Source of the DNA: Rickettsiales bacterium
GTDB lineage: Bacteria > Pseudomonadota > Alphaproteobacteria > Rickettsiales > UBA3002
Direction of reading: 5' to 3'
Assembly (NCBI GenBank): GCA_028281385.1
Contig: JANQJY010000054.1
Span: forward strand, 1 to 39,256
Length of the DNA stretch: 39,256 bases
Positions within the stretch are counted from its first letter, which is position 1; every line of letters starts with the position of its first letter. Positions 1-19,592 of this stretch are shown here, in pieces. The notes beneath the pieces are model-generated. The model was not told the DNA's origin and did no database searches. It was given only the letters and a program-made list of their open reading frames with translations. Position numbers and translations under genes: made by a program.

Positions 1-1415
1 TTGTTTTTGCCATCCAGTTTAACCATGCGCGCGGGAATATTGCGTACCAGCACACTGTCATGATCGGTATGGTTGAAAATCGGCTGGTCATTTTCCAAAT
101 TACCGAAATAAGGAAAGCCAACCTGCACGACCTCGTCAGACGATTTAACTAAACTTATTTCCGGCCAGATTTCCGAGTCATCGGTAACGTTTTTCGCTTC
201 CAGATTCCATTTTCCACTGCCATCCCAGCGCGAACCGATGGTCCCGTTTGGCACGACCACCTCGTTGCTGTTGGCATCGATAATCACCGGCTTCCATTCC
301 GTGTTCTTTTCCTCGCCGAGATTGTCTTTGAAATCAGATGCACGCAGGGTACGGCCCGGTACATAACCGCCATCGCGTTCTTCCAGTATTACCAGAAACG
401 GCATGTCGGTATACATGCGGCAGTAATCGTCGAAATATTCGCTTTTACCTTCCAGGTGATATTCACGCATCACCGTATGGCACATCGCCATCAATAGTGC
501 GGCATCGGTTCCCTGACGTGCGGGCACCCACTCATCGGTCAGTTTGGCGACTTCACTATAGTCTGGTGTGACCGCCACGGTTTTAGCACCTTTATAACGC
601 ACTTCGGTGAAGAAATGTGCATCCGGCGTGCGCGTTTGCGGTACGTTGGAGCCCCAGGCGATAATATAGTTGGAGTTATACCAGTCGGCACTTTCCGGCA
701 CGTCGGTCTGCTCGCCCCAGGTTTGCGGAGAGCTTGGCGGCAGATCGCAATACCAGTCATAAAAACTCATACAGGTACCGCCAATCAGCGACAGGTAGCG
801 ACTGCCCGCAGCATAGGACACCATCGACATCGCCGGAATTGGTGAGAAGCCGATAACACGGTCCGGCCCGAAGGTTTTGGCGGTGTAGATATTGGCCGCA
901 GCGATGATCTCATTGACTTCATCCCAACTCGCGCGCACCATGCCGCCCCGGCCACGCATTTGTTTATAGTCCCTGGCCTTTTCCGGATCACTAATGATGG
1001 AACCCCACGCATCGACCGGATCGTTACAGATCGTTTTGGCTGCTCGCCACTGCTTAAGCAGACGCGAGCGGATCATCGGATATTTCAGACGTGCCGCACT
1101 GTACAGATACCAGCTATAGCTGGCACCACGTGCACAACCGCGTGGTTCGTGATTGGGCAGGTCAGGACGGGTGCGCGGGTAATCGGTTTGCTGTGTTTCC
1201 CAGGTGACCAGTCCGTTTTTGACGTAAATTTTCCAGCTGCATGAACCGGTACAGTTCACCCCGTGGGTTGAGCGCACCACCTTGTCATGCGCCCAGCGCC
1301 CGCGATAGGCGCGCTCCCATTCACGATTTTCCCCGGTGGTAATACCGTGCCCGTCAGAGAATTTCTCCGGTGCCTTGTCGGTAAAGAAGGTTAGTTTGTC
1401 GATCAGGTGACTCAT
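1..1415 (-). CDS. narG: Respiratory nitrate reductase alpha subunit NarG, N-terminal ~471 residues (3' end outside window)
   Basis: NarG is the catalytic, Mo-bisMGD-carrying subunit of the membrane-bound NarGHI complex, reducing nitrate to nitrite on the cytoplasmic side with electrons from quinol. I translated the open frame from the left edge: it begins MSHLIDKLTFFTDK and contains STHGVNCTGSCSWKIYVK (the His/Cys FS0 cluster region), HEPRGCARGASYSWYLYSA, GFSPIPAMSMVSYAAGSRY, GGTCMSFYDWYCDLPP, SNVPQTRTPDAHFFTEVRYKG and ARQGTDAALLMAM, all closely like E. coli NarG. The YDWYCD segment carries the aspartate that ligates molybdenum in NarG, separating it from periplasmic NapA. The start has an AAGGAG ribosome site and lies 21 bp after the upstream narK2-type gene, so it is in the same transcript. 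About 470 of roughly 1,240 residues are present; narHJI presumably follow outside the window. Confidence 0.97.
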   Translation of the reverse strand, partial: MSHLIDKLTFFTDKAPEKFSDGHGITTGENREWERAYRGRWAHDKVVRSTHGVNCTGSCSWKIYVKNGLVTWETQQTDYPRTRPDLPNHEPRGCARGASYSWYLYSAARLKYPMIRSRLLKQWRAAKTICNDPVDAWGSIISDPEKARDYKQMRGRGGMVRASWDEVNEIIAAANIYTAKTFGPDRVIGFSPIPAMSMVSYAAGSRYLSLIGGTCMSFYDWYCDLPPSSPQTWGEQTDVPESADWYNSNYIIAWGSNVPQTRTPDAHFFTEVRYKGAKTVAVTPDYSEVAKLTDEWVPARQGTDAALLMAMCHTVMREYHLEGKSEYFDDYCRMYTDMPFLVILEERDGGYVPGRTLRASDFKDNLGEEKNTEWKPVIIDANSNEVVVPNGTIGSRWDGSGKWNLEAKNVTDDSEIWPEISLVKSSDEVVQVGFPYFGNLENDQPIFNHTDHDSVLVRNIPARMVKLDGKN

Positions 1416-1436: not shown

Positions 1437-3050
1437 TTACGGATTTTTCACATAGGCGTTCTTACGCAGGTAGAACCACCAGTTAATGACAATGCACACC
1501 GTGTAGAAGATGGCGAAACCATACAGTGCGATTTCCGGAGTGGCGGCCTTAATCTGCTCACCAAATACTTTGGGAATGATGAAGGCACCGTAAGCGGCGA
1601 CCGCAGAAGTCCAACCCAGCACCGGTCCCGCCTGTTCCTTATCGAATACCGCTGCAATGGTGCGGAAAGTGGAACCGTTACCAATACCAGTAGCAGCAAA
1701 CAAGATTAAGAACAGTCCCAGGAATGGCCAGAAATACTCTTCCGGTGTGGCTGAAGCGTAGGCCTGCTTCATGAAGTACGCCACACCCAGCGCACAGGCA
1801 ACCATCACCACGGAGATGATTTGCGTCACCTTTGCACCACCGATCTTGTCGGAAATGATGCCACCAATCGGGCGAATCAATGCGCCGATGAATGGACCGG
1901 TCCAGGCGAACATCAGGGCAGATGGACCATTCGGGTTGGGTGTATCATGCGTCAGCACGCCATCGACCATGATGTGCTGAAAGCCGAACACCACCTTGAT
2001 CGCCAGGCCGAAAGCGGCTGCATAGCCGATGAAAGAACCAAAGGTCATAGTATAGATCACGGTCATTGCCCAGGTATGTTTGTTGTTGAAGATGCGGTAC
2101 TGACGCTTGAGCGTATCACGATAGCTCGCCCCCAACGGTACCAGTTTGAGTAGGAATACCGTCAGTGCGATCACGATTGGCAGCACGATCCACTTGCTGA
2201 TCATCAGGCCCGAGCCACCGGCTTTTTCCGGTAACATCAGCCACAAACCGCAGGCGGCAGCAACAAATCCGGCAAATAACATCATGCTGATGATGGCAAA
2301 TGCGCTGATAGGGCTACCGATATTGGGGGAGACATGCTCATCACGGATATTGTTCATGCCGAACCACCCGGCGAAAGCCAGCGGGATCAAGAACATCAGC
2401 CACAGATAACCGGCATTATGGATATAGGTTTCCGTTCCGGCAGGAATTTTACCGATCAGCGTACCGCTGGTATTTTGCAGAATCATCGGTTCGCCGCCGA
2501 AAATACCGAAGGTCATGAATAGCGGCACCAGAATCTGCATGGTTGTCACACCGAAATTACCCAGCCCCGCATTCATGCCCAGCGAATAGCCCTGTACTTT
2601 CTTGGGAAAGAAGAAGCTGATATTGGACATGGAAGAGGCAAAGTTACCGCCGCCGATGCCGGATAGAAAGGCCAGAATCTGGAACTGCCACAATGGAGTA
2701 TTAATATCCTGCAGTGCAAAACCCGCACCGGCTGCCGGGATCATCAGCAGGGCGGTGGTGAAGAAAATCGTATTACGCCCCCCGGCCAGCCGAATGAAAA
2801 AAGTGCTGGGAATTCGCAGTGTGGCACCGGTCAGTCCGGCAATGGCCATCAGGGTGAACAGCTCCGATTTCTCAAAAGGAAAGCCGAGATTAAGCATCTG
2901 TACGGTGATGATGCCCCAATAGAGCCACACGGCAAAGCCGCACAGAAGGCTTGGGATCGAAATCCATAAATTACGGGTGGCAATTTTTTTACCCGTTGAT
3001 GCCCATTGCTGCTCATCTTCGGGATTCCATCCGGTTAAATCTTGGGCCAT
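1437..3050 (-). CDS. narK: Nitrate/nitrite transporter, NarK2-type MFS protein
   Basis: A 537-residue polytopic MFS protein of the nitrate/nitrite porter (NNP) family. Family signatures visible include GNFASSMSNISFFFPKKVQG with the following GLGNFGV, and a second glycine-rich segment near the C-terminal half (GPFIGALIRPIGGIISDKIGG). NNP proteins of this branch are usually assigned nitrate/nitrite exchange. It sits between the NarK1-type gene (15 bp upstream) and narG (21 bp downstream), with a good AAGGAG site before its ATG, giving the order narK1-narK2-narG. In Paracoccus-like denitrifiers the two NarK types are fused in one polypeptide; here they are two genes. The N-terminal tail (AQDLTGWNPEDEQQW) is cytoplasmic and typical of the type. 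Transport mode (antiport versus symport) is inferred from family position, not visible in the sequence. Confidence 0.93.
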   Translation of the reverse strand: MAQDLTGWNPEDEQQWASTGKKIATRNLWISIPSLLCGFAVWLYWGIITVQMLNLGFPFEKSELFTLMAIAGLTGATLRIPSTFFIRLAGGRNTIFFTTALLMIPAAGAGFALQDINTPLWQFQILAFLSGIGGGNFASSMSNISFFFPKKVQGYSLGMNAGLGNFGVTTMQILVPLFMTFGIFGGEPMILQNTSGTLIGKIPAGTETYIHNAGYLWLMFLIPLAFAGWFGMNNIRDEHVSPNIGSPISAFAIISMMLFAGFVAAACGLWLMLPEKAGGSGLMISKWIVLPIVIALTVFLLKLVPLGASYRDTLKRQYRIFNNKHTWAMTVIYTMTFGSFIGYAAAFGLAIKVVFGFQHIMVDGVLTHDTPNPNGPSALMFAWTGPFIGALIRPIGGIISDKIGGAKVTQIISVVMVACALGVAYFMKQAYASATPEEYFWPFLGLFLILFAATGIGNGSTFRTIAAVFDKEQAGPVLGWTSAVAAYGAFIIPKVFGEQIKAATPEIALYGFAIFYTVCIVINWWFYLRKNAYVKNP

Positions 3051-3065
3051 GATAAATCTCCTTTA

Positions 3066-4751
3066 TTATGCCTGTGTCAGCTTTTGACTTTTCGCCAGCA
3101 CCTCGTCACTTTGTGCTTTCAGCATTTTCGCACGTTGTTCCATATGGGCGCTTTCCTGTGCCAGCAGTTCACTGCGCTGGCGCAATGCTTCGCCTTCCAG
3201 AAACGCCATGATACTCTCTTCATCTGTAGCCAGTTCCGGCAGATATTTCGGCCCACGCAATTCGGGATGCTGCTGACGTTCCATACGTTGAATAGCGAAA
3301 TGCATCCAAATCAGTGCCACCGCAATCAATACGGTTAGCAGCATGAAGCAACTCGTCCACACGCCGATCACATCATTCATGATGCCGAAGGTGATTGGCA
3401 GAAAGAAACCACCCAGCCCGCCGACCAGCCCGACAATACCGCCGACGGAGCCGACATGACCTGGATAATAAACGGGGATGTGCTTGTACACGGCGGCCTT
3501 ACCCAGCGACATGAAGAAACCAAGCACAACGGTCAGGCTAACAAACAACCATAACGGGATACCGAAATTAAAATTCAGCGTTTTCTCGGAGATGATCTGA
3601 ACCAAGTTTTTCTTCTTGTTATAAACAGATAATAGGCCATCAACGGATTTCAGAGATGAAGAAAGCTCGTCAACTGCGATCATATCCACAGGTGGCAGAA
3701 CATCCTGCGCTTCGTCATGACCAAGTGTGGAAAACGCTTCGGCAACTTTAGCCGTATCGACCATCTTCATACCGTCAACCACCTCTACATTCTTAATAAC
3801 CGCAGAATCGCCGATGGCATTCACGGTATATTCAGTTTCGGGGTACGACATGATAAAGGTGCACACGACACAGGCAATAAAAGTCCAGTACATCACGGCA
3901 CGGGCGCCCCATTTATCAGACATCCACCCACCCAATGCGCGGAAGATACTGCCCGGCATAGCGTAGCAGGCGGCAAGCAGACCCGCCGTGCCAAGCTCCA
4001 ACCCGTAAGCACCGACATAATAACGCGGCAACCACAGCGCCAGTGCAACAAAGGCGCCGAACACAAAGAAATAATAAAGTGAAAAGCGCCACACCTGCAG
4101 GTTCTTCAGCGGTTCCAACTGCTTTAAGAATGGAACATGCTCTACCCCCTGTTCTTTGCGTTCCTGCAAGGCCGGATCATTTTTAGTGAACAGAAAAAAC
4201 AGGATAGCTGTGGCAGCCACAACGCCAGCATAAATCTGTGCTACGCCCTGCCACTCATTGCCCATGGCAACCAGCAAAATGGGAGCCCCGAAGTTCGTGA
4301 CCGCTGCACCGACGTTCCCTGCGCCAAAAATTCCCAATGCTGTTCCGGTTTTTGCTTTGGGATACCAGGTGGAAACGTATTGTACACCAACGGCAAAACT
4401 ACCACCCGCAAGCCCTACACCAAGCGCAGCCAACAGAAACATCGGGTAGGTCGTCACCATGGTTAGCAAAAAGGTTGCACAGGCGGTTGCCAGCATTTGC
4501 AAGGTGAAGATGAGTCGACCGCCATATTGATCAGCCCAGACGCCCAGGAAAATACGGCTTAAGGAACCAGTTAATATCGGTGTAGCCACCAATATCCCAA
4601 ATTGCGTGTCATTCAAGCCCAGTTCGGCTTTGATTTTGATACCAATAATGGAGAAAATGGTCCATACGGCGAAACAGACGGTGAAAGCCAGCGTGCTGGC
4701 GGTTAGTGCCTGTGTTTGTTCTCCGGAAGTTGTTGCATATTCAGTGGTCAT
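3066..4751 (-). CDS. Nitrate transporter, NarK1-type MFS protein with a long hydrophilic insertion
   Basis: A 561-residue MFS/NNP protein (571 if the ATG at 4781 is used). Signatures include QFGILVATPILTGSLSRI, GVWADQYGGR, GGSFAVGVQYVSTWYP and GFFMSLGKAAVYKHIPVYYP, which match NarK1, usually considered a nitrate/proton symporter. I prefer the ATG at 4751 (MTTEYATTSGEQ) because the FNR-type site at 4824-4837 and a TATCAT -10 predict transcription starting near 4789, leaving only about 8 nt before 4781; neither start has a strong ribosome site. Unusual features: a hydrophilic insertion of about 90 residues between YPETEYTVNAIGDSAVIK and KTLNFNFGIPLW (roughly residues 302-390), and a charged, probably coiled-coil C-terminal tail of about 60 residues rich in Glu/Gln/Ala. 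It is the first gene of the narK1-narK2-narG transcript. Confidence 0.9.
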   Translation of the reverse strand: MTTEYATTSGEQTQALTASTLAFTVCFAVWTIFSIIGIKIKAELGLNDTQFGILVATPILTGSLSRIFLGVWADQYGGRLIFTLQMLATACATFLLTMVTTYPMFLLAALGVGLAGGSFAVGVQYVSTWYPKAKTGTALGIFGAGNVGAAVTNFGAPILLVAMGNEWQGVAQIYAGVVAATAILFFLFTKNDPALQERKEQGVEHVPFLKQLEPLKNLQVWRFSLYYFFVFGAFVALALWLPRYYVGAYGLELGTAGLLAACYAMPGSIFRALGGWMSDKWGARAVMYWTFIACVVCTFIMSYPETEYTVNAIGDSAVIKNVEVVDGMKMVDTAKVAEAFSTLGHDEAQDVLPPVDMIAVDELSSSLKSVDGLLSVYNKKKNLVQIISEKTLNFNFGIPLWLFVSLTVVLGFFMSLGKAAVYKHIPVYYPGHVGSVGGIVGLVGGLGGFFLPITFGIMNDVIGVWTSCFMLLTVLIAVALIWMHFAIQRMERQQHPELRGPKYLPELATDEESIMAFLEGEALRQRSELLAQESAHMEQRAKMLKAQSDEVLAKSQKLTQA

Positions 4752-4823
4752 AACGTGCCTGTCACAAAAAGGGTTAGTCATTTGTCACGGTGGCATGATA
4801 TGGCACAGCCGTCCGATAAAAAT

Positions 4824-4837
4824 GTGATACAGGTCAA
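4824..4837 (-). promoter_or_regulatory. FNR/NNR-type operator upstream of narK1-narK2-narG
   Basis: GTGATACAGGTCAA fits TTGAY-N4-RTCAA except for the first base. Its centre is at 4830.5. On the minus strand a TATCAT -10 (4800-4795) lies where a class II FNR activator centred at -41.5 would need it, with transcription starting near 4789. This supports anaerobic or nitrate/NO-dependent activation of the transporter-reductase operon and favours the downstream narK1 start. Confidence 0.6.
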
Positions 4838-4859: not shown

Positions 4860-4873
4860 TTGACCTGAGTCAA
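4860..4873 (+). promoter_or_regulatory. Perfect FNR/NNR-type operator upstream of hemN
   Basis: TTGACCTGAGTCAA is a perfect dyad (TTGAC-N4-GTCAA), the form bound by FNR/DNR/NNR-like proteins whose recognition helix carries E-x2-S-R. Centred at 4866.5, it predicts a start near 4908 with a weak TAGAAA -10, 15 nt before the hemN ATG. It could also serve as an upstream site for the divergent narK1 promoter. Confidence 0.7.
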
Positions 4874-4922
4874 ATACTCAGACCGTGCCAAACGGTAGAA
4901 AAGTCAGTGTTATTAGGATGAT

Positions 4923-6218
4923 ATGACCGAGCGTGTTCCCAGATATACCAGTTACCCGACCGCGCCGCATTTTCATGCGGGAGTGGGAGCGGATTACTAT
5001 GAAGTATGGCTTGGAGCGCTGAAAGCACAGCATACACTTTCGCTCTATTTTCATATTCCCTATTGTCGGCAGCTATGCTGGTTTTGTGGGTGCCATACCA
5101 AGGTCGTCAATCAGTATGAACCGATTGCAAACTATATGGCGTTGCTGACTCAGGAGGTAGCGCTGGTTTCTAGAAAGGTGTCATCTTCTCCTGTCACCCA
5201 TATTCACTTTGGCGGTGGGTCGCCTACGGTGATAAAAGCAGAAGACTTTGCCTATTTTATGTCGCTGGTACGTGATGCATTTTTGGTGGAGGCCGATGCA
5301 GAAATTGCTGTGGAACTGGACCCACGCACTGTTGATGCGGATAAGATAGCTGCCTATGCTGCCAGTGGTGTCTCGCGTGCTAGCCTTGGCGTGCAGGATT
5401 TTATGCCACAGGTGCAGGAAGCTATCAACCGAGTGCAGCCCTATGCGGTAGTCTCTGATGTTGTCCGGGAATTGCGACGCCACGATATTAATGCATTGAA
5501 TGTCGATTTAATCTATGGACTGCCATATCAGACCGAAAAGACCATCCGACAAACCATAGAGCAGACTCTGTCATTGGAACCCGATCGTATCTCTCTTTTC
5601 GGTTATGCCCATGTGCCCTGGATGAAAAAACACCAGCAATTGGTGCCTCAGGAGGCGTTGCCGGGTGAAACCGCGCGTCTCGCGATGTTTGAAGCAGCCT
5701 CTGTCATGTTGCAAGAGGCAGGGTATATTGCCATTGGTTTGGACCATTTTGCCAAGCCAGGCGACGCGCTGACAAACGCGCTAGAACACAAAACACTTCA
5801 GCGTAATTTTCAGGGCTATACCACCGATAAGGCGAATGCTCTGCTAGGCTTGGGCGTGTCATCCATTTCATCCCTGCCACAAGGGTATGTGCAAAATACC
5901 GCCGCTAACATCGATTATGCGCAGAACATTAAAGCAGGAGCTTTGCCTGTCGTACGTGGAATTGCGCTGAGCGAGGAAGATATCGAGCGCCGCACATTGA
6001 TTATGTCACTGATGTGTCATAGGCGAGTGATGGTGGATGAAAAAACCTATGCAGCAGAACTTGAGTGGTTGGAACCATATTTTAAAGCAGGGGATATTAC
6101 CTATGTAAATGAAGAACTTCTGGTGAATCCGAGGGCGCGCAACCGCTTACGGCTTATCGCCTCCGCCTTCGATGCCTATCTGTCCGATACCAATCATCGT
6201 TATTCTCAGGCGGTGTAA
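4923..6218 (+). CDS. hemN: Oxygen-independent coproporphyrinogen III dehydrogenase HemN
   Basis: A radical-SAM enzyme that decarboxylates coproporphyrinogen III to protoporphyrinogen IX without oxygen, needed for haem synthesis under anoxia. The 431-residue protein opens with VPRYTSYPTAPHF, a HemN hallmark, and carries the cluster motif C48-x3-C52-x2-C55 followed by C57 (PYCRQLCWFCGCHTK), then HFGGGSPT (the SAM-binding glycine-rich segment), ELDPRTVD, SLGVQDF and NVDLIYGLP. Length is slightly under the usual ~450-460. The ATG has an AGGATG ribosome site. It is transcribed divergently from narK1 from a shared region with two FNR-type dyads, fitting anaerobic induction; NarI contains haem, so the supply role is direct. 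Confidence 0.95.
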   Translation: MTERVPRYTSYPTAPHFHAGVGADYYEVWLGALKAQHTLSLYFHIPYCRQLCWFCGCHTKVVNQYEPIANYMALLTQEVALVSRKVSSSPVTHIHFGGGSPTVIKAEDFAYFMSLVRDAFLVEADAEIAVELDPRTVDADKIAAYAASGVSRASLGVQDFMPQVQEAINRVQPYAVVSDVVRELRRHDINALNVDLIYGLPYQTEKTIRQTIEQTLSLEPDRISLFGYAHVPWMKKHQQLVPQEALPGETARLAMFEAASVMLQEAGYIAIGLDHFAKPGDALTNALEHKTLQRNFQGYTTDKANALLGLGVSSISSLPQGYVQNTAANIDYAQNIKAGALPVVRGIALSEEDIERRTLIMSLMCHRRVMVDEKTYAAELEWLEPYFKAGDITYVNEELLVNPRARNRLRLIASAFDAYLSDTNHRYSQAV

Positions 6219-6303: not shown

Positions 6304-7890
6304 GTGAAAGAGGCGCTGTATATTTTAGGTGATGTCGTGCATGTCCTGCAGCGGGAGCGGGGGTGTTGCGCCATTTTTCTCTATAGTGAAGGAAAATTAT
6401 TCACCGAACGCATGCAGGCGCAATTCACGCAGACCGATCAGGCGCTCAAAGCGTTTGAAGAAGGGTTTGCGCGCTGGCAGTCTGCCAGAACATTAAAGCC
6501 ATCTCATCTCGATAAGCTGAATGCATTGCTGAAAGCCTGTCTTACCTTGTCTGAATGGCGGGCAGAAACCGTTACAGGAGAACGACCGGTAGCCGATGCC
6601 ATCGGCCATTATTCCCATCACCTCATTGGGCCGTTATTGCAGGCAATGGTTGAGATTGCCCTGGCGACAGAAGGCAATAACCCGACTTGTGTCAGTGCCT
6701 ATAACGCGTTCTCACAATGGAAAGAGCGTATCGGGCTGGAGCGAGCTATCGGAGCAAAAGGATTTGTCGGCTACAGTTTTCATAATCAGGAATTTATTGA
6801 GCGTGTTTCCTTTTTGCTATCTGAGCAGATCAATTATCAGAACACCTATCTGGCGCTAGCCAACCAACATCAAAAACAGCTGGTGCAAACGGCATTGGAA
6901 GAATGCTCTGCTTGTATGCGGTTAGAAGAACTGCATGATGCGCTGCGCGAGAATCCTGACAGTGGCGTACTTTATGACCTGACGCCGGAAGCCTGGTTTG
7001 ATCTGGTGTCCATGAAAATCGATGCGCTGTATGCGGTGGAGAAAAAACTGGTTGATACGCTCAGCGGACAAGAAAACACGCACGATATAACAACAACAAG
7101 CTCCAGCTCTGAAAAAGAGACAAACAACCGCTTCGGTGAATATGATAAGCTGATCGGTTCGTTACAGCTATTTTCGGGCCTGCCTGAGCAGAACCTGCAG
7201 GCATTATTATATCATGGACAAATTCGGGAGTTTAATAAGGGGAATTTGTTGTTTCTCGAAGGGGAGCCTGCCAACCGCCTGTATATTATTCTCAAAGGTT
7301 GGATTAAATTGTTCAAGGGAACCGCCAGCGGTGAGGAAACGATTTTGCAGATGCTTTCTTCCGGTGATGCAATCATGGAGTCCGCCGTATTTTTGAACAG
7401 CATGCTGCCGGTTAGCGCTCAAGTCGTCGAAGATGCGATGCTACTATCTATCCCAGCCCCAGTATTGCGCGAACAGATCAAAAAGAATAACGAGCTGGCA
7501 ATGAATCTGCTGGCCACCATGTCGCACCGCTCACAAGGGTTGATTCGCCAAATTGAGAATGCACGGTTGAAGTCGGTGGATGAGCGTATTGGCTGGTTCC
7601 TGCTCAAACTGCTGCTCGAACAGGGACGTATCTCCCGTTATGTTGAGCTGCCTTATGATAAAGCACTGATTGCGTCGTATCTGGATATGAAGCGCGAAAC
7701 CTTTTCACGCGCGTTGGGCCGGCTGAAAGAAAAAGGGTTCAAGGTCGAAAATGACACCGTAGTGGCCCCCAGCCTGGATGCGTTGTGCGGCTTTTGCGAT
7801 ACGGATACAGCCGGACAATGCGCACTGCACAAAACGTCCGACTGTCCTAACCCGCAATGCGACGATTCGCAGATAGCTTACACTGGATAA
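6304..7890 (+). CDS. Crp/Fnr-family regulator with N-terminal NIT (nitrate/nitrite-sensing) domain and Cys-rich tail
   Basis: A 528-residue protein read from GTG 6304 (an in-frame stop lies at 6295; no strong ribosome site). Residues 1-245 look like a NIT domain: an N-terminal helix with LQRERG (R17/R19) and a second signature IGLERAIGAKGF (E146-R147), followed by a long helix FLLSEQINYQNTYLAL. A Ser/Thr/Asn-rich linker (~252-276) leads to a cyclic-nucleotide-fold domain from residue 280 and a Crp-type winged helix whose recognition helix has E465-x2-S468-R469 (ETFSRALGRL), as in FNR, predicting binding to TTGAn4TCAA-like sites such as those before narK1, hemN and moaA. The FNR N-terminal iron-sulfur cysteines are absent. 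A C-terminal extension carries five cysteines (C495, C498, C506, C514, C519) and H509, suggesting metal or Fe-S binding. Nitrate sensing and the target set are inferences. Confidence 0.85.
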   Translation: MKEALYILGDVVHVLQRERGCCAIFLYSEGKLFTERMQAQFTQTDQALKAFEEGFARWQSARTLKPSHLDKLNALLKACLTLSEWRAETVTGERPVADAIGHYSHHLIGPLLQAMVEIALATEGNNPTCVSAYNAFSQWKERIGLERAIGAKGFVGYSFHNQEFIERVSFLLSEQINYQNTYLALANQHQKQLVQTALEECSACMRLEELHDALRENPDSGVLYDLTPEAWFDLVSMKIDALYAVEKKLVDTLSGQENTHDITTTSSSSEKETNNRFGEYDKLIGSLQLFSGLPEQNLQALLYHGQIREFNKGNLLFLEGEPANRLYIILKGWIKLFKGTASGEETILQMLSSGDAIMESAVFLNSMLPVSAQVVEDAMLLSIPAPVLREQIKKNNELAMNLLATMSHRSQGLIRQIENARLKSVDERIGWFLLKLLLEQGRISRYVELPYDKALIASYLDMKRETFSRALGRLKEKGFKVENDTVVAPSLDALCGFCDTDTAGQCALHKTSDCPNPQCDDSQIAYTG

Positions 7891-7901
7891 AATCTGCAAA
7901 A

Positions 7902-7915
7902 TTGATCTGAGTCAC
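7902..7915 (+). promoter_or_regulatory. FNR-type operator and promoter of the Moco operon
   Basis: TTGATCTGAGTCAC matches TTGAY-N4-RTCAA at all but the last base. Centre 7908.5. A TGTAAT hexamer at 7938-7943 sits at -10 for transcription starting near 7950, placing the site at about -41.5, the class II activator position. The core CTGAGTCA is shared with the hemN site at 4860-4873. Confidence 0.6.
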
Positions 7916-7949
7916 AGTTTTTCTCATTACCCTATTATGTAATGGGCCC

Positions 7950-8048: not shown

Positions 8049-9053
8049 GTGATACAGAATAACACCGCATCGGCAGATGGGTTAAAGGATAGTTTTGGGC
8101 GCAATTTTCCCTACCTGCGCCTGTCTATCACTGACGTATGTAATTTTCGCTGCAGCTATTGTTTGCCCGATGGATATCGGTGCCATGGCAAACCGGCCTT
8201 TCTGGATAAAGATGAAATTCGTCGGTTGGTGGACGCCTTTGCTGAACTGGGCGTGCATAAAATCCGCCTGACCGGGGGCGAACCGACGGTACGTAAGGAT
8301 TTTACCGAGATAGCCCATCGGATATCCAACCACCCTGCCATCGCTCAGACAGCCTTTACCACTAATGGTTATCGTTTACGTGAATATGCAAAAGAATGGC
8401 GTGATGCCGGGCTGACGCATATTAATATTAGTGTTGATAGTTTGGATGCAAAACGATTCCATACCATTACTGGTCATGATCGTTTGACTGAGATATTGGA
8501 AGGAGTTGATGCAGCGATTGATGCCGGTTTTAAGAAGGTCAAAATCAATGTAGTGCTGTTGAAAGGCGTGAATGATGGTGAGCTTGCTGATTATTTAGCA
8601 TGGGCAAAAGAATCTCCCATCAGCATCCGCTTTATTGAGCTGATGCAGACCGGTGATAATCTCGACTATTTTAAAAAATATCATCTGTCGGTGGATGTGA
8701 TTACGCAGCAGTTAATGCAGGCGGGGTGGGTGACAAAGCCACGCGCACTGGAAGCCGGACCGGCAGTGGAATATGTTCATGCGGATTATGATGGCTCCAT
8801 TGGTCTGATTGCGCCCTATTCTAAAGATTTCTGTAAAGGTTGCAATCGGCTACGCGTCACGGCGACGGGGGATTTGCGCCTGTGCCTGTTTGGTGCGCAG
8901 GGTACCTCTTTGCGTCATTTGTTGCAAGAGGATGAGCAGAAACCTCTGCTCAGGCAACTCATTTCCAACCAGCTGGTATACAAATGCTCATCACATTTTC
9001 TGGCTTACGGCGATACGGGCATCACCCCGCATCTGGCATCGGTAGGAGGATAA
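8049..9053 (+). CDS. moaA: GTP 3',8-cyclase MoaA
   Basis: A radical-SAM enzyme that, with MoaC, converts GTP to cyclic pyranopterin monophosphate, the first step of Moco synthesis. It has the N-terminal cluster motif C31-x3-C35-x2-C38 (CNFRCSYC), RLTGGEPTVR, NISVDSLD, and the C-terminal substrate-side cluster CKGCNRLRVTATGDLRLCLFG in two C-x2-C...C pieces, and ends in Gly-Gly as MoaA requires. An in-frame GTG at 8028 would add seven residues, but AAGGAG (8035-8040) is correctly spaced for the GTG at 8049, which I take as the start (334 residues). It is the first gene of the operon; moaCB follows 2 bp after its stop. Confidence 0.95.
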   Translation: MIQNNTASADGLKDSFGRNFPYLRLSITDVCNFRCSYCLPDGYRCHGKPAFLDKDEIRRLVDAFAELGVHKIRLTGGEPTVRKDFTEIAHRISNHPAIAQTAFTTNGYRLREYAKEWRDAGLTHINISVDSLDAKRFHTITGHDRLTEILEGVDAAIDAGFKKVKINVVLLKGVNDGELADYLAWAKESPISIRFIELMQTGDNLDYFKKYHLSVDVITQQLMQAGWVTKPRALEAGPAVEYVHADYDGSIGLIAPYSKDFCKGCNRLRVTATGDLRLCLFGAQGTSLRHLLQEDEQKPLLRQLISNQLVYKCSSHFLAYGDTGITPHLASVGG

Positions 9054-9055
9054 TT

Positions 9056-10078
9056 ATGAAAGAGATCACCACTTTCTTTGAACAAAGCCAATACCATATG
9101 GCAGACATTACGCGCAAAACAGCCAGTTTTCGTCGGGCAGTGGCGATGGGGCGTATCCATGTCGGGGAAACGGGCTTTACCCATATTAAGAACCAAACCC
9201 TTCCTAAAGGTGACGTGTTAAAACTAGCTGAAATTGCCGGTGTACAGGGCGCTAAAATGGCATGGCAGCAGATCCCGATGTGCCATCCGCTACTGCTTGA
9301 CCACGTGGCGGTCTATCCGGAGTTGGAAGAAGAAACGCACTCTATTGCTGTCTATGCGATTGTATCGACCACGGCCAAAACTGGCGTGGAGATGGAAGCA
9401 CTGGCAGCGGTCAATGTAGCATTGCTGACGCTATATGACCTCACCAAGCCGGTTGAACCAGCCCTCACCATTTCTGACACCAGATTACTTCTTAAAGAAG
9501 GTGGCAAGAAAGGGTTATGGGTGCATCCGGATGGTGTTCCCGAAAACCTGCAGGCGTTATTACCTGTCATCCCCTCTCGCCCATTGAAAGGCAGAACCGC
9601 TGCGGTGATTACACTAAGCGACCGGGCGTATAAGGGAGAATATGAGGATCGTTCCGGTAAAACATTAAAAGAATCATTAGAAAAGCTGGGCTGCCGGATA
9701 GCAGATTATACCCTGTTGCCCGATGAACCGGATCAACTTGAGCAAAAAATCATCGAACTGGCCGGAAAGGTGGAGCTGATTGTCACCACCGGCGGTACGG
9801 GCCTTGCTCCGCGTGATATCACACCCGATACACTCAGCAAACTGGCCAATGTCGACGTGCCGGGAATTGGTGAATTGCTGCGCAGCAGTGCGGCTGCACA
9901 TGTGCCGACTTCCTGGCTCAGTCGTTCATCCGCTGTAATTATCGATGACACATTGGTAATTGCACTGCCGGGTAGCACCGGTGGCGTAAAAGATAGCATT
10001 GAGGTGCTTAAGCCGATTTTGTCGCATGCGCTTGATCATGTGCAGGATAAGAAAAACATTCATGGAAAAGCCGCATGA
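9056..10078 (+). CDS. moaCB: Fused MoaC-MoaB: cyclic pyranopterin monophosphate synthase plus molybdopterin adenylyltransferase-type domain
   Basis: A 340-residue fusion. Residues 1-158 are MoaC: K51 (LPKGDV), K67, MCHP with H77, KTGVEMEAL with E112/E114, and D128/K131 in LYDLTKP all fall at the same numbers as the E. coli catalytic residues. Residues 180-335 are a MoaB/MogA (MoCF) domain: VITLSDRAYKGEYEDRSG, TTGGTGLAPRD (244-254) and LPGSTGGVKDSIEVL. MoaC finishes cPMP synthesis; MogA/MoaB adenylylates molybdopterin before molybdate insertion, so the fusion joins an early and a late step. The start is ATG 9056, with GGAGG at 9045-9049 inside the end of moaA; a longer frame extending into moaA is not the real start. 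It overlaps moeA by 4 bp. MoaC/MoaB fusions are known in other bacteria. Confidence 0.94.
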   Translation: MKEITTFFEQSQYHMADITRKTASFRRAVAMGRIHVGETGFTHIKNQTLPKGDVLKLAEIAGVQGAKMAWQQIPMCHPLLLDHVAVYPELEEETHSIAVYAIVSTTAKTGVEMEALAAVNVALLTLYDLTKPVEPALTISDTRLLLKEGGKKGLWVHPDGVPENLQALLPVIPSRPLKGRTAAVITLSDRAYKGEYEDRSGKTLKESLEKLGCRIADYTLLPDEPDQLEQKIIELAGKVELIVTTGGTGLAPRDITPDTLSKLANVDVPGIGELLRSSAAAHVPTSWLSRSSAVIIDDTLVIALPGSTGGVKDSIEVLKPILSHALDHVQDKKNIHGKAA

Positions 10079-11307
10079 TTTCCTACGAAGAAGCGCTGGA
10101 TATTTTACATGCACAGGAGAGACCTTCCCCTGTCACCCAAAGTGCTAATGAATCCTGCGGCTATGTTGCTGCACAGGATGCGGCAAGTGATGTGTTGGTT
10201 CCGCCTTTTGCCAACTCGGCTATGGATGGCTTTGCGGTGCGTAGTGCCGATCTGGTCGATGCATCAGAAGACAATCCGGTCACTTTGCTAAAGACAGGTA
10301 GCACCGTTGCGGGCGACACTCCTTCCGCCGGGCAAGGTGGTGCATGGGAAATTATGACCGGTGCGCCGGTACCACAAGGCTATGATGCGGTGGTGAAAGT
10401 GGAAGATGTGAAAGTGAATGGTGATCAGGTTACATTTATCAAACCTGTAGAGTTGCATAATAATATCCGCGATGCGGGTGAAGATATAATGCCAGGCGAT
10501 GTAATGATTGAAGTGGGCACAACTGTTAGCCCCATGCATGTGATGGCACTGGCAACGGTTGGACAAAAAGACATTGCAGTGATGCCAAAGCCAAAAGTGA
10601 CGGTGTTTACAACCGGTAAAGAGATCATTGATGATGCGGATGCAGCGTTATTGCCGGGTCAGATTCGTAATTCAAACAGCCCTTATCTAATGGCGGCATT
10701 GGATGAGTTATCGGTTGATACCAGTTATGGCGGGATCATTGCCGATGAACCGGAGCAGTTTGAACAGCGGGTGAAGCAGGCGTTGTTTGATACAGATATT
10801 TTTATTTCTACCGGTGCGGTATCGATGGGAACGCATGATTTTATCCCCGATAGTTTGCGTAAACTAGGAGCTGAGATTCTGTTTCATAAAGTGATGATTC
10901 GTCCTGGAAAGCCCATTCTTTATGCTCGTTTTCCCGATGGCACCCATTATTTTGGTTTGCCGGGAAACCCGGTGTCTGCCGCAGTGGGATTGCGCTTTTT
11001 TGTGGTGCCGCTATTGTGCCATTTGCAGGGTATGGAGATAGAGTCTCCCATTACGGCGCGTTTGCTTGCTCCGTCATCAAAAAAACAAGGCTTTCGTTTT
11101 TTCCGTAAAGCGCATGTGTCGGTGGCGCAGGACGGCACATTACAGCTCGACATTCTGAAGGGCCAGGAATCATTCAAAATTCATCCGCTATTGCAGGCCA
11201 ATTGCTGGGCGAGTTTTACGGAAGATCAGACCGGTCTTGAAATTGGTGAAACGATTGATGTCTATCCCCTTAATCCGGGTGCATGGACATTGGATAATGT
11301 AGCATGA
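10075..11307 (+). CDS. moeA: Molybdopterin molybdenumtransferase MoeA
   Basis: Inserts molybdate into adenylylated molybdopterin. The 410-residue protein has the expected order: PPFANSAMDGFAVRSADL (domain III start), EIMTGAPVPQGYDAVVKVED, NIRDAGEDIMPGDV, the MoCF domain with FTTGKEI, GQIRNSNSPYL, STGAVSMGTHDFIPD and MIRPGKPILYARFPDG-GLPGNPVSA, and a C-terminal beta domain. The usual TTGDEL is TTGKEI here and SGGVSVG is STGAVSMG; the second variant is common in MoeA proteins and does not suggest inactivity. The ATG overlaps the moaCB stop (ATGA), implying translational coupling, and a 40-codon ORF overlaps its own stop in the same way. Confidence 0.95.
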   Translation: MISYEEALDILHAQERPSPVTQSANESCGYVAAQDAASDVLVPPFANSAMDGFAVRSADLVDASEDNPVTLLKTGSTVAGDTPSAGQGGAWEIMTGAPVPQGYDAVVKVEDVKVNGDQVTFIKPVELHNNIRDAGEDIMPGDVMIEVGTTVSPMHVMALATVGQKDIAVMPKPKVTVFTTGKEIIDDADAALLPGQIRNSNSPYLMAALDELSVDTSYGGIIADEPEQFEQRVKQALFDTDIFISTGAVSMGTHDFIPDSLRKLGAEILFHKVMIRPGKPILYARFPDGTHYFGLPGNPVSAAVGLRFFVVPLLCHLQGMEIESPITARLLAPSSKKQGFRFFRKAHVSVAQDGTLQLDILKGQESFKIHPLLQANCWASFTEDQTGLEIGETIDVYPLNPGAWTLDNVA

Positions 11308-11437: not shown

Positions 11438-11695
11438 ATGGAAATTACACTACAGCTATTTGGCGCTTTCAGGCCGCTTGGCGAAAGCATCAAACTGACT
11501 TTGCCTGAAGGGGCAGTAGTCTCAGATATACGCAACGTGCTGCCAGACGCTGTCAACCGGCTCGATCATAGCGTGAATAAAAGTGAGTTGGTAAACAGCT
11601 CGCGGTTTGCGACCGAGACAGCCATTCTGCCTGAGTCAGCATCATTGCATGATGGTATGATGGTTGCCATTATTCCACCGGTGGCTGGGGGGTGA
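11438..11695 (+). CDS. moaD: Molybdopterin synthase small (sulfur-carrier) subunit MoaD
   Basis: An 85-residue beta-grasp protein ending in the obligatory Gly-Gly (IIPPVAGG). MoeB adenylates this terminus, it becomes a thiocarboxylate, and MoaE uses it to build the dithiolene of molybdopterin. The N-terminal strand pattern (MEITLQLFGAFRPLGESIKL) and the mid-region NKSELVNSS are MoaD-like. AGAGGAGAAAGGG provides a strong ribosome site. It is followed immediately by moaE, its partner subunit. Confidence 0.93.
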   Translation: MEITLQLFGAFRPLGESIKLTLPEGAVVSDIRNVLPDAVNRLDHSVNKSELVNSSRFATETAILPESASLHDGMMVAIIPPVAGG

Positions 11696-11697
11696 CG

Positions 11698-12183
11698 ATG
11701 TCTGCAGAGCTGTTTGTTGATATTTGGGATGTGGGTACGCAGCCGCTGGATGTGCAGGCCGGGCTTGCCCATGTGACCCGGCAGGGCAATGGTGCGGAAA
11801 CGCTGTTCATCGGAACGGTCCGTAATTTAAATCAGGGCAAGCAAGTGTTGGGCGTTAGCTATGATGTATTTGAACCGTTGGCCAGACAATCTTTTATGGA
11901 TATTTGCCAGGAAGCACAGGACAAGTGGGGAAGAGAATTATCGCTCTATGTGGTGCATGGCAAAGGACGGCTTCCAGTTGGTGGCATCAGCATCGTGATT
12001 GCGGTTGGCTCGCCCCATCGTGATGAGGCGTTCAAAGCCTGCCGTTATGTGATTGAGCAGATCAAACATCGTTCTCCGATCTGGAAGCTGGAACATTACG
12101 CCGACGGTGACAGCGAATGGACGCAAGGCTGCGAGTTATGCACGCATGCACATGAAGTAGAGGAGCACCGGCACCATGGGTAA
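11698..12183 (+). CDS. moaE: Molybdopterin synthase catalytic subunit MoaE
   Basis: The large subunit, forming a heterotetramer with MoaD and converting cPMP to molybdopterin. Motifs: FIGTVRNLNQGKQVLGVSYD, FEPLARQSFMDI, HGKGRLPVGGISIVIAVGSP, HRDEAFKACRYVIEQIK and SPIWKLEHYADG, where the lysines around IK and WK correspond to the family's active-site lysines. I chose ATG 11698 (161 residues), preceded at five bases by the G-run that ends moaD; a GTG at 11692 overlapping the moaD stop is possible and would add two residues. The His-rich C-terminus (CELCTHAHEVEEHRHHG) is an extension beyond the usual MoaE end. The last 8 bp overlap mobA. Confidence 0.93.
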   Translation: MSAELFVDIWDVGTQPLDVQAGLAHVTRQGNGAETLFIGTVRNLNQGKQVLGVSYDVFEPLARQSFMDICQEAQDKWGRELSLYVVHGKGRLPVGGISIVIAVGSPHRDEAFKACRYVIEQIKHRSPIWKLEHYADGDSEWTQGCELCTHAHEVEEHRHHG

Positions 12184-12730
12184 CTGTGCCGGTGCCATAC
12201 TGGCGGGAGGGAAATCATCCCGTATGGGAGAGGATAAGGTGGGGTTACGTCTGAATGGACACACTTTGTTGCGGCATATGGAAGATCTATTGAAAGAAGC
12301 CGATATAGAAAATATTTATATCAGCCACCCGGACCATATTCCTGATGATATTGTGGGCCTGGGTCCGTTAAGTGGTATTCACGCTATTTTAAAAGTGGCT
12401 GCAGAACATCACAAACATGTCTTGTTTGTTCCCATTGATATGCCTTGCCTAACAGCTGTGCAGATCGGCCGGTTAATGAGCGCACCCGATAGCGCATCGC
12501 TTGTGCATTTTGATTCACATAAAATGCCCTTTCGCCTGAGCGCGGATAATAAATGGCGGGAGCTGGCAGAAGGATTATTGCAGACGAAGAAAAATGTATC
12601 ACTTGGCCATTTTCAGAAACAAATTGCAGCCCGTCTTTTGGTGACATTAAAGGCAGGTGAGGAAGCCTGTTTTCAAAATATGAATACACCGCAAGAGTGG
12701 AATACTTTTATGGCAGGAGGTCCTACATGA
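12176..12730 (+). CDS. mobA: Molybdenum cofactor guanylyltransferase MobA
   Basis: Attaches GMP to Mo-molybdopterin to give MGD, the form required by NarG. The 184-residue protein opens with the nucleotide-binding signature LAGGKSSRMGEDK (9-21), followed by GLGPLSGIHAIL, VPIDMPCL (the metal-binding Asp region) and NMNTPQEW, all standard for MobA. It overlaps moaE by 8 bp and ends with ATGA shared with the next gene. Placing mobA in the same operon as the core pathway fits supply of bis-MGD to the nearby nitrate reductase. Confidence 0.93.
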   Translation: MGNCAGAILAGGKSSRMGEDKVGLRLNGHTLLRHMEDLLKEADIENIYISHPDHIPDDIVGLGPLSGIHAILKVAAEHHKHVLFVPIDMPCLTAVQIGRLMSAPDSASLVHFDSHKMPFRLSADNKWRELAEGLLQTKKNVSLGHFQKQIAARLLVTLKAGEEACFQNMNTPQEWNTFMAGGPT

Positions 12731-13077
12731 ATTTGCGGATAGAACATCAACAGCTGCGTTTTCGTATTAGTAAGGAAGAGTTGGAAACTCTTTGCTCTGG
12801 TGAGAGAATCATACAACAGACCGTTTTTCCCGATGGACGCATTCTGGAAATAGACATGGTGGTACAACCTATCCAAGACACCTTAGAGATACGTTTTGAG
12901 GGAGACAGCCTGATACTGCTCATTCAAAAGCAGGCAGCAGAAGAGCTATATCATTCCCTTCCAAGTCGCGAGGGAATAAGCAGTGCACAGAAAATTGACG
13001 ACACTCGGTCGTTGAAACTGACGCTGGAAGTCGACATTCGAACACAAAAACGCAAGCGGAATGACCATGCATCATGA
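12727..13077 (+). CDS. Small uncharacterised protein in the Moco operon, DUF7009-like
   Basis: A 116-residue soluble protein starting at ATG 12727, which overlaps the mobA stop (ATGA) and has AGGAGG just upstream. It begins MNLRIEHQQLRFRISKEEL and has alternating hydrophobic residues suggesting a small beta-rich fold, with a basic C-terminus. The opening pattern (MxLRIxxxxLRFRxxxxEL) resembles the DUF7009-type proteins I recall from other Moco gene clusters, but the usual cysteine near the C-terminus (as in DFxCL) is replaced by DIRTQ here. Its last 17 bases overlap moeB. It could be a chaperone or insertion factor; no function is shown. Confidence 0.6.
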   Translation: MNLRIEHQQLRFRISKEELETLCSGERIIQQTVFPDGRILEIDMVVQPIQDTLEIRFEGDSLILLIQKQAAEELYHSLPSREGISSAQKIDDTRSLKLTLEVDIRTQKRKRNDHAS

Positions 13078-13822
13078 TCAGGAGGTCCGCTACGCTCGTA
13101 ATGTATCACTCCCTGAAATAGGAAGTGATGGGCAGGAACGACTTTTATCATCGAAAGTATTGGTAGTGGGGGCAGGTGGTTTGGGTTCTCCCTTACTGTT
13201 TTATCTGGCAGCCGCTGGCGTTGGAACAATCGGTGTGGCGGATGATGACCGGGTTGCCTTATCGAATCTTCAGCGTCAGATTTTACACGAAACCGGTGAT
13301 ATCGGACACAGCAAAGTCGAAAGTGCGGCTGATACGATTGGTGATCTGAATCCTGATGTTCAAGTGGTTCCTCATATTTGTCGGTTGGATGAAAGCAATG
13401 TAGACGAGATTATTTCCTGCTATGATTTGGTGGCGGATGGATGCGATAATTTTGAAACGCGCTTTTTGGTGAACCAAGCGTGTTTGCGACATAATAAAAC
13501 GCTGGTATCTTCTGCAGTTATCGGGTTTTCCGGTCAGCTTTATACGTTTAAGCCATATCTGGGTGTACCACATCCCTGTTACCAATGCATTTACCCTGAA
13601 TTACCTCCCCCGGACGTCACCCCGAACTGCTCTGAATCCGGCGTGCTGGGCAGTGTGGTTGGTCAGATGGGAAGCTGCCAAGCTACAGAAGTAATCAAAG
13701 AGTTGTTAGGCATTGGCGAAAGCCTCTCCGGGCAGATGATAATGGTCGATGCACTCACTAACACGATACGAAAGGTGAAGGTGGCGCGTGATCCGAGCTG
13801 TGCCTGCTGTGGAGACACATAA
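13061..13822 (+). CDS. moeB: Molybdopterin-synthase adenylyltransferase MoeB (ThiF/HesA family)
   Basis: Activates the MoaD C-terminus by adenylation so that sulfur can be loaded. The 253-residue protein has RYARNVSLPEIGSDGQERL, the ATP loop VVGAGGLGSPLLFYLAAAGV (35-54), DDDRVALSNLQRQILH (Arg/Gln contacts), VADGCDNFETRFLVNQ (catalytic Asp) and two zinc-binding pairs, CYQC and CACC. There is no rhodanese domain, so the sulfur donor is separate. It overlaps the preceding small gene by 17 bp and shares TAATG with the next gene. ThiF is a related alternative, but the context decides for MoeB. Confidence 0.93.
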   Translation: MTMHHDQEVRYARNVSLPEIGSDGQERLLSSKVLVVGAGGLGSPLLFYLAAAGVGTIGVADDDRVALSNLQRQILHETGDIGHSKVESAADTIGDLNPDVQVVPHICRLDESNVDEIISCYDLVADGCDNFETRFLVNQACLRHNKTLVSSAVIGFSGQLYTFKPYLGVPHPCYQCIYPELPPPDVTPNCSESGVLGSVVGQMGSCQATEVIKELLGIGESLSGQMIMVDALTNTIRKVKVARDPSCACCGDT

Positions 13823-14571
13823 TGGCACTGGGCATTCTGTTTGCGTTTGTCGCCCTGTTTTATGCCAGCGTTGGCTTTGGCGGTGGATCATCCTATCTGG
13901 CGTTACTGGTGTTGTGGGAGGTCCCTTATGCTATCATCCCCGCCATTGCACTGATCTGTAACATCACCGTTGTATCGGGCAATAGCATTCACTATGTACG
14001 TGCCGGATATCTGAATTGGCGTTTGCTGTTACCCTCAACATTAGCATCGGTTCCTTTCGCCTATCTCGGCGGCAGGCTGGACATTGAGAAAGAGCACTTT
14101 ATCCTGCTATTATGTGCCACGCTGCTTATTGCCGGCGTGCGCCTGCTTTTAAACTATCGTCTTTATGATGACAGCACGATGTCGTATCATCCTATCTCAT
14201 TAGGGCTAGGCGGTGTTATTGGTGCTGTGTTAGGCTTTCTGGCCGGAGCGATTGGTATCGGCGGCGGCATCTTTCTGGCGCCCATCTTATATAATTTACG
14301 TGCCGGTTCCCCTAAACAGATTGCTACGACCGCATCGCTGTTTATTTTGGTCAATTCAATTGCCGGACTCATTGGCCAGCTACAGAAAAATGGTGTCACC
14401 GAGGCGGTGCTGGATTACTGGTATTTGCCATTACTGGTACTGGCTGGTGGGCAAATCGGTAATCTTCTTACTATCAGGTTTATCCCGACGCGTATTGTAG
14501 CACTGCTCACAGCATTGCTGGTGCTGTTTGTAGCGGGGCGATTGGGGGTGCTGGTCTTTTCAAGCTATTAG
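13822..14571 (+). CDS. TauE/SafE-family membrane permease
   Basis: A 249-residue, 7-8 helix membrane protein with the two family repeats: SVGFGGGSSYLALLVLW near the N-terminus and AGAIGIGGGIFLAPIL in the middle. The family exports sulfite, sulfoacetate or other small anions. The start codon overlaps the moeB stop (TAATG), so it is the last gene of the Moco operon. A role in moving a sulfur or oxyanion species tied to dithiolene synthesis is an inference from position; homologues beside moeB-like genes are common. No clear terminator follows; the next gene is convergent. Confidence 0.85.
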   Translation: MALGILFAFVALFYASVGFGGGSSYLALLVLWEVPYAIIPAIALICNITVVSGNSIHYVRAGYLNWRLLLPSTLASVPFAYLGGRLDIEKEHFILLLCATLLIAGVRLLLNYRLYDDSTMSYHPISLGLGGVIGAVLGFLAGAIGIGGGIFLAPILYNLRAGSPKQIATTASLFILVNSIAGLIGQLQKNGVTEAVLDYWYLPLLVLAGGQIGNLLTIRFIPTRIVALLTALLVLFVAGRLGVLVFSSY

Positions 14572-15909: not shown

Positions 15910-16281
15910 GTGACAGAATCATTATTTGAACGTATTGGTGGTGCCCCAGCAGTGAAGGCGACAGTTGCAAAACTATACAGCAAAATTTTATCTGATCCCA
16001 TACTGATTCCTTTTTTTGAGGATATTGACGTGGAGCGTTTGCGCAAAAGCCAAACCGCCTTTGTCTCAATGGCTGCAGGCGCCAAAACGCCATACACGGG
16101 ACAGTCGCTGAGAACAGCGCATCAACATTTAGTAGATAAAATGGGGCTCAATGATGTGCATTTTGATGCAGTCGCTACGCATTTGCACGACTCATTGGAT
16201 GAACTTGGAGTACCCAAAGGCTTAATCGAAGAGGTGTTGGCTATTGTCGAAACCACACGAGATGATGTGCTCAATCGATAA
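15910..16281 (+). CDS. Group I truncated haemoglobin (trHbN-like)
   Basis: A 123-residue 2/2 globin: SLFERIGGAPAVKATVAKLY, Tyr23 at the B10 position (KLYSKILSDP), PFFEDIDVERLRKSQ, PYTGQSLRTAHQHL with proximal His71, and a C-terminal helix. These are group I truncated-globin features; such proteins bind O2 and NO and several detoxify NO. The start is GTG 15910 with AAGGAG at 15895-15900. It is followed after 15 bp by a hybrid histidine kinase, so it may supply or buffer the gas signal for that kinase, or protect against NO made during nitrate respiration. Both roles are inferred. Confidence 0.9.
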   Translation: MTESLFERIGGAPAVKATVAKLYSKILSDPILIPFFEDIDVERLRKSQTAFVSMAAGAKTPYTGQSLRTAHQHLVDKMGLNDVHFDAVATHLHDSLDELGVPKGLIEEVLAIVETTRDDVLNR

Positions 16282-16296
16282 GGAAAGGAAGACTAT

Positions 16297-19370: not shown

Positions 19371-19592
19371 ATGGAAACGAAATTAACCGCTATTGGAAAT
19401 TCGACAGGGCTACGTGTGCCAAGTGAGCTGCTTGCGCAGATGGGACTTAAAAAAGGAGATCCGGTCTATATTGTTCCCACGAAAGACGGATTCACAGTGA
19501 CGCCTTATGATCCAGAGTTTGCCGAAGACATTGAACTCACCAAACGCTTTATGAGGAATTACAAAAACGCTCTTCACGAGTTGGCGAAGTGA
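19371..19592 (+). CDS. AbrB/MazE-family antitoxin
   Basis: A 73-residue protein with a swapped-hairpin AbrB/MazE DNA-binding fold: TKLTAIGNSTGLRVPSELL, LKKGDPVYIVPTKDGFTVTP. The C-terminal helix (FAEDIELTKRFMRNYKNAL) would wrap the toxin. AGGA lies 9 bp before the ATG. Its stop overlaps the toxin start (GTGA), the usual arrangement of toxin-antitoxin pairs. It should neutralise the Doc protein encoded next and repress the operon through the palindrome at 19308-19325. Confidence 0.88.
   Translation: METKLTAIGNSTGLRVPSELLAQMGLKKGDPVYIVPTKDGFTVTPYDPEFAEDIELTKRFMRNYKNALHELAK

Follow-up and report, generated by a model that had tools for sequence, protein, structure and literature searches.

In Escherichia coli, oxygen and nitrate are both read at the nar promoter, by FNR and NarXL (PMC8139620); these are separate proteins and the nitrate sensor is membrane-bound. 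Alphaproteobacteria lack NarXL, and the Crp/Fnr-family protein NarR, a nar activator responsive to nitrate and nitrite, stands in (PMC8139620, PMC3541799). NarR has no [4Fe-4S] cluster (PMC8139620) and, in Paracoccus, the nar genes are under the control of both FnrP and NarR (PMC8139620, PMC3541799). A different arrangement is found in NasR of Klebsiella oxytoca, a soluble one-component nitrate regulator in which a NIT domain is joined to an RNA-binding ANTAR output that works by antitermination (PMC7496416), and for which the arginine R176 (PMC7496416) and the Q-x-x-R / G-x-x-R motif (PMC8199190) have been described. In a further system, the Fnr of Bacillus subtilis and B. cereus, oxygen is sensed by a Crp/Fnr regulator through C-terminal cysteines (PMC3520743, PMC8139620); the ligands of its [4Fe-4S] cluster are the cysteines of a C-x2-C-x4-C motif plus an aspartate (PMC3520743), and in B. 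subtilis the protein controls narGHJI (PMC3520743, PMC8139620).

Here we describe a regulator, termed NIT-Crp, that is encoded in a window of 39,256 nucleotides from a Rickettsiales bacterium, the window being the whole stretch of DNA that was analysed (Table 1). The protein is a new combination of known parts, most likely with a NasR-like input, an output like that of NarR and FNR, and a possible second input at a tail of cysteines. With NasR it shares the character of a soluble one-component regulator, the NIT fold and the Q-x-x-R / G-x-x-R site, but in place of the ANTAR domain it has a Crp/Fnr DNA-binding module followed by the cysteine tail. With NarR it shares membership of the Crp/Fnr family and a putative role as a nitrate- or nitrite-responsive activator of nar, although NarR to our knowledge has no NIT domain, whereas NIT-Crp has both a fused sensor domain and a four-cysteine tail. 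The Bacillus Fnr proteins also have C-terminal cysteines, but they lack a NIT domain, and the C-x2-C-x7-C-x7-C spacing of the NIT-Crp tail, in which a cluster is putative, places it outside the Bacillus type. Among solved structures and NCBIfam models, the Crp half comes closest to Crps of the DNR and FtrB types, but these are without a NIT domain, and what FNR and NarXL do as separate proteins may here be the work of one soluble protein. We found no description of this architecture in the open-licence literature searched, although automatic domain-order annotations of it may exist.

We consider it likely that NIT-Crp is a soluble, one-component, nitrate-responsive activator of nitrate respiration. 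In the mechanism that we propose; 1) the NasR-like N-terminal NIT domain would bind nitrate and/or nitrite in the cytoplasm; 2) the ligand-bound NIT domain would cause the Crp/Fnr dimer fused to it to engage FNR-type boxes of the form TTGAY-N4-RTCAA; 3) these boxes would be centred about 41.5 bp before the starts of narK-narGHJI, hemN and moaA; 4) the moaA transcript would pass through a molybdenum-cofactor riboswitch and so be subject to feedback by cofactor supply, which would place the riboswitch in series with the nitrate and anaerobic control that NIT-Crp exerts on moaA; and, 5) the four C-terminal cysteines would most likely hold a metal or an iron-sulfur cluster, with full activation also needing low oxygen. 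That the response to nitrate would be activation is suggested by the class II promoter geometry described below and by known biology.

Table 1. Features of the window around the NIT-Crp gene, with positions numbered from the first letter of the window.
Feature	Positions	Strand	Details
narG, N-terminal part	3..1415	-	the gene continues on another contig, C46, of this genome
NarK-type nitrate/nitrite transporter	1437..3050	-	
narK2, second NarK-type transporter	3066..4781	-	
FNR-type box for narK2	4824..4837	-	TTGACCTGTATCAC on the - strand; -10-like TATCAT 33 bp from box centre
FNR-type box for hemN	4860..4873	+	perfect palindrome, half-sites TTGACCTGAGTCAA; -10-like TAGAAA at 4896-4901, 32 bp from box centre
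hemN, oxygen-independent coproporphyrinogen III oxidase	4923..6218	+	TIGR00538
NIT-Crp regulator gene	6304..7890	+	528 aa, GTG start; 13 other full-length relatives
NIT domain, residues 10-253	6331..7062	+	Q16-x2-R19 and G144-x2-R147; from Pfam, NasR alignment and fold
cNMP-binding (Crp sensory) domain, residues 308-395	7225..7488	+	PF00027, 1.1e-17
HTH_Crp DNA-binding domain (HTH_Crp_2), residues 427-494	7582..7785	+	PF13545, 5.6e-9; E465/S468/R469
Four-cysteine tail, C495-x2-C498-x7-C506-x7-C514	7786..7845	+	14/14 homologues, also NIT-less members of the same clade
FNR-type box for moaA operon	7902..7915	+	TTGATCTGAGTCAC; -10-like TGTAAT at 7938-7943, 32 bp from box centre
Molybdenum-cofactor riboswitch ahead of moaA	7939..8058	+	RF01055, 58.8 bits
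moaA	8028..9053	+	GTG 8049 is the likelier start, preceded by the AAGGAG at the end of the riboswitch
moaC/moaB fusion and moeA	8984..11307	+	
moaE, mobA, DUF7009 gene, moeB-like gene, TauE/SafE gene (rest of the molybdenum-cofactor island)	11692..14571	+	

The GTG start of the gene is backed by homologues that open with M/V-KEAL at the same residue. Pfam gives three domains for the protein, NIT, cNMP_binding and HTH_Crp_2, all above their curated cut-offs; the NIT match (PF08376) has an E-value of 3.6e-35 and a score of 122.9 bits against a cut-off of 24.9, and takes in positions 1-238 of the 239 in the profile. An ANTAR output domain was not found among the Pfam matches, nor was a transmembrane segment found in NIT-Crp. 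The Crp/Fnr superfamily is defined by a cNMP-binding fold followed by a Crp winged helix-turn-helix, and NIT-Crp has the two in that order. Since there are 14 full-length homologues with an identical domain order, the fusion is real and not a chance event or an artefact of assembly. A preliminary description of this DNA, made from the sequence alone, had proposed a NIT domain fused to a complete Crp/Fnr module, and this is borne out by Pfam and by a NasR-like fold; the NIT-like signatures that it had picked out, LQRERG and IGLERAIGAKGF, correspond to residues 15-20 and 143-154. The one-component design of NIT plus Crp/Fnr is therefore supported in silico. An AlphaFold model of the whole protein, built from a two-row alignment, reached a pLDDT of only 50 and was set aside as poor.

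For the NIT domain we used an AlphaFold model of residues 1-259, from a two-row alignment and with a pLDDT of 71.6. The sole significant Foldseek match of this model was NasR (4akk, 2.3e-6), with which it superimposes over 248 residues at a Z of 23.4. In fourth place comes McpN (6gcv), a nitrate receptor, with a Z of 11.9, although middling Z values are common among helical bundles. The profile search and the comparison with NasR, both suggested in the preliminary description, agree in finding a NIT fold and, because NasR matches the model, that observation stands. In the NasR alignment R19 and R147 pair with the arginines of the Q-x-x-R and G-x-x-R of NasR, and Q16, R19, G144 and R147 are invariant among the NIT-Crp homologues that reach this region. 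We compared 35 other NIT domains and found the equivalents of these residues to be just as fixed there, and the NIT domain of PA4520 has been reported to bind neither nitrate nor nitrite (PMC6381276). For both reasons the site residues show a canonical NIT domain and do not prove nitrate binding, and we rejected them as proof because they do not discriminate. We infer that the NIT domain of NIT-Crp would bind nitrate or nitrite.

The recognition helix of the Crp half, RETFSR, contains E465, S468 and R469, the FNR-type E-x2-S-R already seen in the preliminary description, and all three are invariant across the NIT-Crp homologues. This helix, together with TTGAT-N4-ATCAA-like sites at the presumed targets, gives FNR-type recognition in silico. 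With the canonical FNR profile (PRK11161) the protein scores 49 bits, short of the 228 required, and the FtrB model of NCBIfam matches the Crp half at 2e-34, far under its equivalog cut-off; the closest solved relatives of this half are 3fx3 and 3dkw (DNR). An N-terminal cysteine cluster of the E. coli FNR type was not found, as the stretch between residues 205 and 494 is free of cysteine, with therefore none preceding the Crp module. The premise that FNR proteins sense oxygen through N-terminal cysteines, absent here, is correct as to the absence but is incomplete, because in Bacillus Fnr the cysteines are C-terminal (PMC3520743, PMC8139620). Since the Bacillus protein senses through them, the tail of NIT-Crp appears less odd and a possible role for it is suggested.

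In the tail, C495, C498, C506, H509, C514 and C519 are located exactly as first described, and a tail of five cysteines is correct for this protein but not as a conserved feature, which is instead C-x2-C-x7-C-x7-C. All 14 homologues have C495, C498, C506 and C514, while H509 is kept in 9 of the 14 and C519 likewise in 9; as these two vary, we rejected the idea that conservation extends to a fifth cysteine or to a Cys-His site. The four-cysteine tail is also present in eight NIT-less Crps (L083, L085-L089, G701 L139 and G658 L147), which form one clade with the NIT-Crps (SH-aLRT 99), and so an origin of the tail together with the NIT fusion is unsupported. A tail of the form C-x2-C-x(3-6)-C is widespread among the remaining Crps of the order. 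By analogy with Bacillus Fnr, a site for iron-sulfur or another metal is the likely role of the NIT-Crp tail, and an iron-sulfur cluster within it is plausible.

Upstream of the gene are narG and two narK genes on the opposite strand and hemN on the same strand, and it is followed by moaA and the further molybdenum-cofactor genes. Contig C46 of the same genome holds the C-terminal part of narG and then genes at the expected place of narHJI. Across the family, nar and/or moa genes adjoin NIT-Crp, or are within a few kilobases, at 13 of 14 loci, and the order of the molybdenum-cofactor genes is largely retained in homologous islands; in genome G1000 the NIT-Crp gene sits beside carotenoid genes, at a contig end. 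Other features of the window may be recorded here. NarK2 is 571 amino acids long, whereas its counterpart in the closest island (G055) has 454, and it contains an insertion at the position equivalent to 317/318 of the G055 protein; the insertion is in-frame, and a frameshift was rejected on this ground. A DUF7009 gene (12697-13077, + strand) follows mobA, a position that is conserved in several nar-moa islands, and a role in molybdenum-cofactor metabolism is likely for it, although we know of no description of such a role. Further along the + strand are a bacterial-type globin gene adjoining one for a GAF-PAS hybrid histidine kinase that also carries receiver and Hpt domains (15910-18909), and a gene for a small Fic/DOC-family protein (19589-19981).

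Three dyads had been noted beside these genes, and all three are present (Table 1). Counting as a box any site with 9 or 10 of 10 matches to TTGAY-N4-RTCAA, a consensus whose Y/R form was picked after viewing the sites of the window's group, we found 20 boxes in the 4.6 kb of flanking regulatory regions that had been chosen and 29 in the other 169 kb, a 25-fold enrichment (P 3e-19), with shuffled controls giving a mean of 0.6 and a maximum of 3. In the other group, boxes perfect for the strict FNR consensus are found right after the NIT-Crp stop codon. Counted from the box centre toward the gene, TATAAT-like hexamers peak at 32 bp, where 12 of 31 boxes have one with at least 4 of 6 matches, against about 2 at other distances. 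A spacing of 32 bp between box and hexamer is that expected for a class II activator centred at -41.5. This enrichment and promoter geometry lend in silico support to the proposal that the protein acts on FNR-type boxes beside its own gene. The predicted transcription start of moaA, at about 7950, coincides with the beginning of the structured part of the riboswitch. There is an AAGGAG at the end of the riboswitch, and the true translation start is then probably GTG 8049. The same riboswitch was found in 7 of 8 homologous loci scanned, as in the window directly behind an FNR-type box.

The 14 full-length NIT-Crps come from the genome of the window, a public metagenome-assembled genome (MAG) entitled Methyloligella sp. 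(L002, 58%), nine more genomes of the same order and three elsewhere in the class. The order has small genomes and is probably an alphaproteobacterial one that is rich in MAGs. Of these last three, one (G1000) was found in a draw of 385 genomes of the class outside the order, and two (G430 and G381) in a draw of 398 genomes from the phylum, in which no full-length NIT-Crp beyond the class was found. None was found on plasmids at 80% coverage. Within the order, narG is present in 12 of 344 genomes, a count that leaves out two further weak hits, and NIT-Crp in 10, all of them among those 12 (P 1e-17); the genomes span six family codes but are related, and hence represent fewer independent events of co-occurrence than their number. 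A role in nitrate respiration is supported in silico by this co-occurrence and by the linkage to nar and moa. The NIT-Crp gene groups cut across families, f1 and f23 each holding both main groups, and since they do not track family lines this suggests horizontal movement of the nar-moa island, with differential loss also possible. Two genomes are natural variants. G701 (L139, L173) has narG, a narK2 preceded by an FNR-type box and one Crp, which is NIT-less, has the four-cysteine tail and is closest to the NIT-Crps of its own genus; in this genome the nitrate sensor has been lost in nature, or was never there. In G451 (L135), a 1.0 Mb genome with a narK-narG and moa island, no Crp-family protein was found, and there is no FNR-type box between its moaA and narK. 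Our proposal is favoured by G451, as the box is missing where no Crp was found, and weakened by G1000, as its NIT-Crp lies by carotenoid genes.

The main rival concerns a second Crp. A search with HTH_Crp_2 gave just two Crp-family proteins in the genome of the window (G000), and the other one (L108:3302-4051, contig C69) is NIT-less, lies beside ccoNOPG and has a C-x2-C-x5-C tail, so that a proteobacterium may here have an oxygen sensor resembling Bacillus Fnr. The boxes could mainly serve this protein as an FNR-like oxygen regulator, with NIT-Crp only modulating or competing there, and this would be consistent with its E-x2-S-R helix, as in NIT-Crp, with a TTGAY-N4-RTCAA box in its own promoter and with another upstream of a Rieske-like respiratory gene. 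However, from family to family the clusters of boxes accompany NIT-Crp and the nar/moa island, and NIT-Crp is found together with narG, so that we regard this explanation as unlikely. The two proteins need not exclude each other, as sharing of boxes is possible, in the manner of FnrP and NarR on Paracoccus nar (PMC8139620), and the second Crp may also use the nar boxes.

It could also be that the NIT domain senses another ligand, or is a dimerisation or regulatory scaffold, and that this nar regulator answers only to oxygen or redox through its tail. The failure of the PA4520 domain to bind nitrate (PMC6381276) and the example of G701, in which the tail module exists without NIT in a nar genome, are in keeping with this, but the near-perfect co-occurrence of NIT-Crp with narG and the NasR-like site in the NIT domain argue against it, and we think it less probable still than the rival based on the second Crp. 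As to the tail, we entertain with some reserve the possibility that a single polypeptide is a two-input gate, reading nitrate through NIT and oxygen through an iron-sulfur cluster at the four C-terminal cysteines. We give equal and similarly guarded credence to a structural zinc site without sensing, which is compatible with nitrate-responsive activation through NIT. Patterns of four cysteines are also typical of zinc sites, and this one is fixed throughout the clade whether NIT is present or not. Against a zinc site, the C-x2-C-x(3-6)-C tails of other Crps of the order, including the C-x2-C-x5-C of the same genome, come near to the C-x2-C-x4-C spacing of the [4Fe-4S] ligands in Bacillus Fnr (PMC3520743).

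The NIT-Crp family offers a direct answer to how a NarR-like regulator could perceive nitrate, namely by joining an explicit NIT sensor directly to an activator of the FNR type. If the two-input gate is true, one protein does what FNR and NarXL do jointly in E. coli. The family provides soluble, expressible proteins with predicted target boxes, and its natural variants, the NIT-less four-cysteine Crp of G701 and the absence of both Crp and box in G451, let the sensing of nitrate be separated from that of oxygen.
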